In this document: positions 21,762 to 23,598 of the stretch, piece by piece | Layout: every line of letters starts with the position of its first letter | How positions within the stretch are numbered: the stretch's first letter is position 1 | NCBI GenBank assembly: GCA_019636815.1 | Contig: JAHBWT010000039.1 | Coordinates: 1-37,732, forward strand | Reading direction: 5' to 3' | Length of the DNA stretch: 37,732 nt | Source of the DNA: Nitrospira sp. | GTDB taxonomy: Bacteria > Nitrospirota > Nitrospiria > Nitrospirales > Nitrospiraceae | The notes under the pieces: generated by a model | Told to the model about the DNA's origin: nothing | The model's input: only the letters and a program-made list of their open reading frames with translations | Databases searched by the model: none | Made by a program: the position numbers and the translations under genes

Positions 21762-21900
21762 CTGGCGTACGACATTCGGACTATCCAGGAACTGCTCGAA
21801 CTGCTCGGTCACGAAGGACGTCGGCACCACCATGATCTGCACGTATTGAACAAGGGCGGTCACGGGCTGGGGAGTGCGGTCGATGGCCTGCGACCCGTCT
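21762..21900 (+). pseudogene. Relic of an integron-type tyrosine integrase (IntI C terminus)
   Basis: The plus strand encodes [17 protein letters not shown], then after a short out-of-frame piece [17 protein letters not shown]. IntI-family recombinases end with the same series: YDIRTxQELLGH, DVxTTMIYTH with the catalytic Tyr, then VLNxGGxGVxSPxD. The missing middle (DVGTTMICT) can be read in a neighbouring frame at 21818-21844, so two small indels have broken it. A one-base shift also separates the LEAG preceding YDIRT. Only the C-terminal ~50 codons remain. It is followed within 500 bp by a bona fide attC site, supporting an integron origin. Confidence 0.75.
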
Positions 21901-22012
21901 TATACAGACTGCATAAGAACGACGATTTGAAAGTGGGAGTAGTGCGGAACGTGTTCTGCTGTAATGGGTTAGGGTAGGCAATGGGCGGGTACTTGCGGAT
22001 TTAGGTAGAAGC

Positions 22013-22062
22013 GGACAAGCTGCCGTAAGAGGATTATGCAGTCTGTCCAAACATTGTTAGGC
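22013..22062 (+). other. Integron core site GTTAGGC with upstream imperfect hairpin (attI or attC remnant)
   Basis: GTTAGGC at 22056-22062 fits the integron crossover consensus GTTRRRY. Eight bases before it lies an imperfect inverted repeat, GGACAAGCTGC (22013-22023) and GCAGTCTGTCC (22038-22048). No matching RYYYAAC is seen on the left. It could be attI or the right half of a decayed attC. With the attC core at 22421 it bounds one cassette. Confidence 0.5.
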
Positions 22063-22097
22063 GGACACGGCCAATGTCGCTCAGCCGAGGCAGTGCC

Positions 22098-22344
22098 ATG
22101 AACGAGGAACCTCGACTCAGATTCGCCAAACCGTTGAAGCGCGCATGGCCTCGTTCGAAGCGGCCGAGCTAAGCCTCGACTAGGCTAAGGTGATTGCCCA
22201 CTTCTCGACGGCCGGCGACTTCTACATGCACAACGATGGCCAGCGGGGCGGCTTCGACGAGATCGCCGGTATACCCGCAAGTGGAAGATTGTCTATGGGC
22301 ACGTCGACCATTATCCGGTTGCGGCTTCGGAAGGCACCGCCTAA
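22098..22344 (+). pseudogene. Decayed SnoaL/DUF4440-like gene in an integron cassette
   Basis: Pieces of one protein lie in two frames. From 22112: TQIRQTVEARMASFEAAELS, then LD, a TAG stop (probably from a Trp TGG) and AKVIAHFSTAGDFYMHNDGQ with GGFDEIAG. After a large internal deletion, from about 22277: YTRKWKIVYGHVDHYPVAAS, EGTA and TAA. This is the pattern of SnoaL-like/DUF4440 small proteins, whose C termini read KWKIVHGH. The ATG at 22098 is out of frame with the first piece. The TAA stop lies inside the R'' box of the attC site, the usual arrangement in a gene cassette. It is not functional. Confidence 0.7.
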
Positions 22345-22427
22345 CACGCGCGTGAAGCCGACGGCGTTCAGTTGCTGTGGATCATCATCCTGGCATCTGG
22401 CCCATGCGGCTTACGCGCCGGTTAGGT
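22339..22427 (+). other. attC: attC recombination site (integron cassette, 59-base element)
   Basis: The R'' box GCCTAAC (22339-22345) and R' box GTTAGGT (22421-22427) are complementary over 6 bp and fit RYYYAAC/GTTRRRY. Inside them GCGCGTGAAGCCG (22348-22360) pairs with CGGCTTACGCGC (22407-22418) except for one unpaired G in the left arm. That single extrahelical base in L'' just before AAGCC is the structural hallmark of attC sites (for example T-C-AAGCC in aadA attC). Total length is 89 bp with a ~46-nt terminal loop. I regard it as a genuine attC. Confidence 0.88.
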
Positions 22428-22452
22428 TGTTTAAAAAGATGAGAGCTTAGTC

Positions 22453-23598
22453 ATGAAAAATAATAATATCGTTAATCTTTCTCTTCTAATGAGCTCAGCC
22501 ATTATATCAATTGCTCTGGCAGAAGTATTTTTGCAAATAATTGGGAAACCGGGTCCCGTCATTTCAGGATGGTCGGCCCCAAAAAGGAACACGTCAGAGA
22601 CAAATCAGCTTGGTTTTCGAGGACGAGACTATAACTATACAGAGAGCGATTACGTTATCATTCTTCTGGGTGACTCTCAGGTTGAAGCATCTGCGAGTTC
22701 TTTTGATGGGCTACCAGAGAGAAAATTAGAATATCATCTCAACCAACAGGTAAACAATATTAATAAGAAAATAAAAGTATTCTCAATTGGCGCAGGGGGC
22801 TATGGACAGGATCAACAACTTCTATTATTAGAAAAATATTACCAGACATTTCGCGCTGATCTGGTCGTTTTATGGCAAACCCCAGACAACGACATCTGGA
22901 ATAATGTTTTTCCTACACATTGGCCACGAAACGGATGGGCCAAACCAACTTTCAGGTTAGTCAATGGCAAATTGGATGGGCCAAGTGAGATATTTGGCGA
23001 AGAATTGAATTGGTCGAAAATAAAAATTTTTGCCTTAGCGAATAGATTATTTCAACTTAGTAATAGGGATGGTTTGTGGGAAAAATATCTTCCATCACCT
23101 TATAAGCCATTAAGTACTTATGAAGGCGCGATTTGCTACGATTGGCAAGAAAGGTGGGACGAAAATCTTGGGTTAATGCAAAATGAAAATCTTGATACAG
23201 AAAAAAGTCATTTGGCAATATCATTAACCCCTATCAGCCCACGGATGCAGTACGGTCTTGATTTAACAAGAGCGCTTTTGCACACAATAGAGCATTTGGT
23301 GAAGAAAAATAAAGGAGATTTTATTATATTTAATACGCAGTCATCACAGTCTGATGAAGTGGAAAAAAATTGTTTGGAAGATGAGGTGGTGCATAAATTG
23401 AACGGGAAATATTACAAAACATCCAGGAAGCAGTTTCTTGACAGTCTATCATATATTAATGCAGGTTTTTCATCATTCACTATACCGATAACGATATCAA
23501 ACTGGCGAGTTGGGCCAGAAGATGGACATCTTAATGAATTTGCCAATGATCAGGTCATGAAGGATCTCTCGACTCAGATCGTGTCACTCATCAAGTAG
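22453..23598 (+). CDS. SGNH/GDSL-hydrolase-like protein, AT-rich, probable integron cassette gene
   Basis: The protein is 381 aa. A hydrophobic N-terminal helix (about residues 8-29) anchors or exports it. Then come NQLGFRGRDY, typical of membrane-linked SGNH proteins, the block I nucleophile motif ILLGDSQVEAS (Ser75), an AGGYGQDQQ Gly motif for the oxyanion hole, and a C-terminal EDGHLNEFA that could supply the catalytic His359. Such enzymes de-acylate or acetylate polysaccharides or lipids. The coding DNA is strikingly AT-rich, with many AAA/ATT/AAT codons unlike every neighbour, so it was acquired. It starts 25 nt after the attC core, as a cassette gene would. No attC follows it; IS remains do. 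Confidence 0.82.
   Translation: MKNNNIVNLSLLMSSAIISIALAEVFLQIIGKPGPVISGWSAPKRNTSETNQLGFRGRDYNYTESDYVIILLGDSQVEASASSFDGLPERKLEYHLNQQVNNINKKIKVFSIGAGGYGQDQQLLLLEKYYQTFRADLVVLWQTPDNDIWNNVFPTHWPRNGWAKPTFRLVNGKLDGPSEIFGEELNWSKIKIFALANRLFQLSNRDGLWEKYLPSPYKPLSTYEGAICYDWQERWDENLGLMQNENLDTEKSHLAISLTPISPRMQYGLDLTRALLHTIEHLVKKNKGDFIIFNTQSSQSDEVEKNCLEDEVVHKLNGKYYKTSRKQFLDSLSYINAGFSSFTIPITISNWRVGPEDGHLNEFANDQVMKDLSTQIVSLIK

Follow-up and report, generated by a model that had tools for sequence, protein, structure and literature searches.

In class 1 integrons, the attI site carries a GTTAGGC core, the attC sites have R and L boxes, cassette genes end inside R'', and intI is divergent from the cassettes. 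Here we describe an integron remnant between thpR and recA in a 37,732-nucleotide stretch of DNA from Nitrospira sp. (contig JAHBWT010000039.1 of assembly GCA_019636815.1), the whole of which is hereafter referred to as the window. The remnant shares the attI core, the attC boxes and the gene end in R'' with class 1 integrons, but its intI is co-directional with the cassettes. The chromosomal integrons of Treponema have an inverted arrangement (PMC3607928) and the window shares this layout, with intI transcribed towards the cassettes; the IntI proteins of Treponema, Spirochaetes and Elusimicrobia align over nearly their full length, including most of the N-terminal extension. In contrast to Treponema, the window intI is internally deleted, a single attC is left and the host belongs to another phylum. 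A proposed origin of clusters of attC sites lacking integrases (CALINs) is the degradation of integrons; two CALINs reported from Nitrospira inopinata are the only ones of the phylum mentioned in the IntegronFinder 2 survey (PMC9024848). The window resembles a CALIN in having attC without an integrase, but keeps attI, the intI leader and the intI tail, so that its route of decay is visible; it holds one attC, while the IntegronFinder 2 default for a CALIN is at least two attC without an integrase. Pseudogenes account for approximately one third of intI genes, and IntI is ~120 amino acids longer in one clade (PMC2426708). The window is similar to these pseudo-integrons in that an intI has been inactivated in a chromosomal integron. 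However, such pseudogenes are mostly described as carrying stops or frameshifts (PMC2426708), whereas the window has a large leader-to-tail deletion, seen at seven more loci of the genus.

We conclude, with a probability of roughly 0.8, that the window locus is a dead inverted chromosomal integron that lost its integrase by internal deletion, with its parts possibly retained as an expression leader. It belongs to an already known kind, the degraded integrons, and similar relics recur in the genus; the aspects that appear to be new are the recurrence of the leader-tail deletion and the excess, throughout the genus, of attI platforms lacking an integrase.

Integrase relic, attI and attC of the window

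An earlier note on this DNA had proposed a decayed integron between thpR and recA. The features it named are at the places it gave and exceed chance expectation, while the element itself starts ~70 bases earlier than proposed, at ~21686, with the intI leader. When intact IntI proteins of relatives were used in tblastn, their C-terminus matched 21744-21890 (+) with 46-55% identity (E ~1e-5 to 2e-8), the nearest being an IntI from genome G022 (genomes are denoted by our own handles). HVLNKGG and the other IntI motif reported earlier share one frame in this relic, which has suffered a 9-nt duplication, a 1-nt insertion and a 4-nt deletion, making it a non-working gene. Of an integron integrase gene, which would include the additional domain, approximately the last 50 codons remain, and we therefore file the locus as a degraded, incomplete integron.

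The relic could alternatively be a fragment of an ordinary XerC/D or phage recombinase, accompanied by chance att matches. Its C-terminal motif DIRT.QELLGH is common to XerC/D, and protein hidden Markov models (NCBIfam, Pfam) respond weakly, the top NCBIfam match taken alone (integrase_gron TIGR02249, positions 271-315) reaching only E=0.0054. In view of this weak protein evidence, DNA models were built without the window. The tail+attI model (R2), made from five sequences of other genomes, matches 21754-22057 with 208.7 bits (E=2e-62). This identifies GTTAGGC at 22056, singled out previously as a core site, as the attI core, which aligns with that of relatives, and places attI adjacent to intI. 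The attC covariance model (R1) was made from 14 attC sites at other loci. Of their 19 pairs, 12 show changes on both sides, and the observed covariation was reached in 0 of 500 shuffles. The model finds the attC that had been proposed at 22339-22427 (+) with 33.8 bits (E=1.8e-6) as the window's only match at E<=10, and a hand-made arm-pairing score is 29.5 at this site, the highest value among 300 shuffled windows being 28.0. In addition, the relic has the IntI-type ending LNKGGHG..S.VD, and the XerC-type recombinase from the same genome gave no tblastn match to it. With both att models matching and the parts ordered as in intact integrons, the XerC or chance explanation is refuted, and we assign it a negligible probability. 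Judged on its sequence, the relic is a C-terminal remnant of an integron integrase and not of XerC. Neither of the two outcomes that the earlier note had named as refuting its proposal was observed.

The attC has the R''/L''/L'/R' structure, and is the only such site. The stop codon of the decayed cassette-1 gene (TAA, 22342-22344) falls within its R'' box, and cassette 1 spans 0.37 kb. An NTF2/SnoaL-like reading of the cassette-1 gene, made by eye, was unsupported and has been set aside. An Rfam scan of the window at gathering thresholds returned a tRNA only.

Upstream of the relic, the window leader is 85-91% identical to the leader found 5' of intact or near-intact intI in G017, G056 and G001. 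There, ~350-400 bp separate it from the aligned integrase core downstream, and it precedes the ATG of a 405-residue IntI that bears an N-terminal extension of ~90 residues. In the window the leader is joined straight to the intI tail, and intI has therefore been lost through an internal deletion. Comparable leader-tail fusions occur at seven other truncated loci (G017:C3, G018:C6, G012, G065, G090, G077 and G084), with differing breakpoints. An inverted repeat, GAGCC-ACA-GGCTC, lies between the -35 and -10 elements of the candidate intI promoter at L069 10138-10048 (-) and in relatives. It is possibly an operator, and is degenerate in the window.

Table 1. Features of the thpR-recA region, in window coordinates.
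Feature	Position	Strand	Evidence
cinA, left flank	18628..19926	+	Pfam CinA 2.9e-55
thpR, LigT-type 2'-5' RNA ligase, left flank	19896..20537	+	Pfam LigT_PEase 2e-19
Ankyrin-repeat protein, resident neighbour kept in relatives	20586..21164	-	Pfam Ank, synteny
RelE-type toxin gene remnant	21504..21581	-	tblastn 67%, synteny
intI 5' leader with promoter-like TTGACA-18-AAGAAT at 21712-21741 (PintI candidate)	21686..21754	+	leader comparison with relatives
Internal deletion junction, nearly all intI gone between leader and 3' tail	21754..21755	+	comparison with intact intI
intI 3' tail, ~last 50 codons	21754..21890	+	tail+attI model R2, tblastn
attI site, 172 bp	21891..22062	+	R2 match, alignment A1
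Palindrome TCTTATACAGACTGCATAAGA just 3' of lost intI stop codon	21898..21918	+	comparison with relatives
Candidate cassette promoter Pc, CGGACA-17-TATGCA	22012..22040	+	family consensus TGGACA-17-TATACA
attI core GTTAGGC	22056..22062	+	aligned with attI core of relatives
Decayed cassette-1 gene, in-frame stop and frameshift	22098..22344	+	sequence reading
attC of cassette 1	22339..22427	+	R1 E=1.8e-6; arm score reached in 0/300 shuffles
Intact SGNH-hydrolase-like gene, 381 residues, second cassette position	22453..23598	+	open reading frame, motifs, homologs
IS3-family transposase remnants	23710..24417	-	NF033516 1.7e-6 for 24082-24417; orfB part by eye only
recA, right flank	24631..25716	+	RecA homologs at same locus in relatives, 86-99% identical

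The gene in second cassette position has a G+C content of 0.384 compared with 0.544 for the window. Homologs that are 37-61% identical occur in distant members of the same phylum, with the GDS, ND and D.H motifs conserved among homologs; no attC was found near these homologs. The protein itself has no Pfam or NCBIfam match, and a single-sequence AlphaFold prediction gave a predicted local distance difference test score of 32. Motifs and homologs suggest that the gene probably encodes a laterally acquired SGNH-type hydrolase. The IS3-family remnants that follow have a counterpart between thpR and recA in G074, 86% identical across 400 bp.

Palindromes of 17-23 bp, specific to each attI lineage, are present directly 3' of the intI stop in the window and in relatives, and a sequence related to them borders directly on the attI core; the palindrome is possibly an integrase accessory site. 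A hybrid attI in G057:C2 (L245 4975-5132) combines the left palindrome TTATGCCGATCCGCATAA of one lineage with the body and core of another, which suggests recombination between attI sites. Separately, an element of ~75-150 bp, 90-96% identical between copies and starting GTTCGGGCGACGCTGCGCGTCACCCGAACGG, recurs directly behind or close to attI or cassettes in several genomes (L178, +164 to +314 past the intI end; likewise L069, L070, L018 and L087), and could be either a cassette without a gene or a small insertion element.

Integrase-less relics across the genus

A set of 79 genomes of the genus was used for comparison. In intact relatives the order is leader, intI, attI, then cassettes with attC, the whole set sharing one strand. 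The attC sites of relatives have the orientation of intI, and most of them follow its end. The intact G017 locus likewise has intI, a cassette gene and attC on a single strand. The window repeats this order minus the middle of intI: intI and cassettes are on one strand, and intI reads toward attI, as in an inverted integron. The proposal that the individual parts of the window derive from one integron is thus borne out by intact relatives that hold the same parts in the same order and on the same strand. The first cassette gene of the G017 integron (L069 7830-8620 (-), starting MADVFISYKRAE) is TIR-domain-like by eye.

A C-terminal IntI query revealed ~40 IntI tails beyond the Xer proteins, while an N-terminal query recovered ~nine near-complete genes, ~six open throughout. 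The other matches of the N-terminal query were an internally deleted copy on C56 in the window's genome, a broken gene of divergent sequence (G008) and, in G089, a longer fragment with its tail preserved; no head-only relics of this IntI family were seen with it in the 79 genomes. The tail+attI model detects ~90 loci at E<1e-9. The best full-length IntI match (75%) is in the Nitrospira metagenome-assembled genome nzgw278. At least three further relics in the window's own genome are located on C122, C56 and C73, each with downstream attC sites (weak on C73), in addition to a weak relic on C74. The attI sequences of the window and of the same genome's other relics represent three lineages. A clustering of relic edges 130-190 bp before the intI end, considered as a functional boundary, was dropped as a bias of the 55-residue query; the left edges of attI-model matches vary widely.

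From their sequences, the attI core, palindrome and attC appear intact in the window, and G055, G056, G017 and G085 combine an intact intI with tail relics. The locus might therefore be a functional non-autonomous platform, with attI and attC working with an integrase supplied in trans. However, no intact IntI was found in the window's genome, a 95%-complete draft, and the decayed cassette-1 gene suggests long inactivity; we consider such a platform improbable.

The recA locus in relatives

The thpR-recA interval varies in the genus from 95 bp to more than 20 kb. Tails or attI sites are found upstream of recA, and on its strand, in the window, G012, G018, G057, G076, G077 and G081, all seven sharing the same position relative to ank, relE and recA (relE is lost in G018). 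The earlier description of the locus as unusual is too strong within the genus, where relics lacking an integrase are common and seven species carry one at the position found in the window. In G049, a tail/attI also lies upstream of recA and on its strand, at a different spot. In total, nine elements occur within 12 kb upstream of recA compared with 0.28 expected, although these counts are non-independent owing to shared ancestry. A relE-phd pair is intact at the corresponding place in relatives; because it is found, among the loci examined, essentially at the recA locus only, we take it to be a resident neighbour outside the integron.

Rather than descending from one inherited ancestor, several separate integrons may have entered a hotspot next to relE-phd and recA. 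The recA-locus attI sequences fall into at least four groups of a tree based on a short alignment with modest support (G012/G077/G049; G076/G018; window and G065; G057/G081). On the other hand, the elements agree in position and strand and have identical resident neighbours, the ank-relE genes, and recombination between attI lineages could scatter such a tree. We regard the hotspot and its opposite as evenly balanced. A shared upstream junction had been considered as proof of one inherited insertion, and was ruled out since the junction is the intI leader and the breakpoints are species-specific; the attI tree, where recA-locus copies do not group, also counters it.

Promoter and attI after loss of the integrase

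An internal deletion removed intI; what it left is a leader with a promoter-like site, a frameshifted tail, a complete attI and a single cassette whose attC is good. Without the integrase, the array would be frozen, with no further rearrangement by its own enzyme. Because intI and cassettes are co-directional, the deletion would bring attI and the cassettes to lie downstream of the intI promoter, and promoter and attI may persist as a predicted expression leader for captured genes, in this case the SGNH-like gene, until eroded. The cassette-1 gene and Pc are already damaged. The consensus TGGACA-17-TATACA is kept in most of 28 attI sequences.

Leader, tail and attI could alternatively persist by chance as a neutral leftover with no present role, an explanation that we find credible if somewhat short of an even chance. 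In the window the tail and Pc are decaying, while G018 and G076 keep just 90-100 bp of attI at the recA locus and other relatives show no trace. Set against this, the core end is kept and the left end is variable in ~30 loci with this attI type, the IntI family lacks head-only relics in the survey described above, and conservation of the attI core block exceeds that of fourfold sites. In the 60 bp of attI nearest the core, the window is 72-87% identical to four recA-locus relatives, compared with 42-52% at fourfold-degenerate sites (binomial p 7e-5 to 7e-11), a pattern in keeping with a retained expression leader, although fourfold sites are an imperfect neutral standard and the conservation may reflect lateral exchange as opposed to selection.

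These two reservations weigh against the dead integron with a retained leader, as do several other points. PintI and Pc are candidates from consensus matches and their role in expression is predicted, with the window Pc drifted and weakened relative to the family consensus. An intact intI might be missing from the draft assembly. R1 found no attC 3' of the SGNH-like gene in the window, and we hence infer its status as a cassette from position: the AT-rich composition and cassette position noted earlier hold. The missing site was perhaps lost along with the IS3 insertion. Finally, over 1.2 kb of the recA-locus region G012 and G077 are 79% identical, against only 40% at their fourfold sites; together with the attI tree groups, this renders repeated insertion or recombinational replacement as likely as simple inheritance, and one ancestral insertion at the recA locus is not claimed.

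It is possible, though on balance unlikely, that integrase deletion in this genus is a recurrent and selected step that makes inverted integrons into fixed expression sites by joining the integrase promoter to attI and the captured cassette, with selection keeping promoter and attI long after loss of the enzyme, often at the shared site near recA. The whole genus carries inverted integrons, nearly all of which are integrase-less, and standard tools would largely miss such relics because an integrase or two attC are required. The repeated leader-tail deletions offer a concrete path by which an integron could turn into a CALIN, and with them the retention of integron parts for expression, once capture has ended, becomes a testable question.
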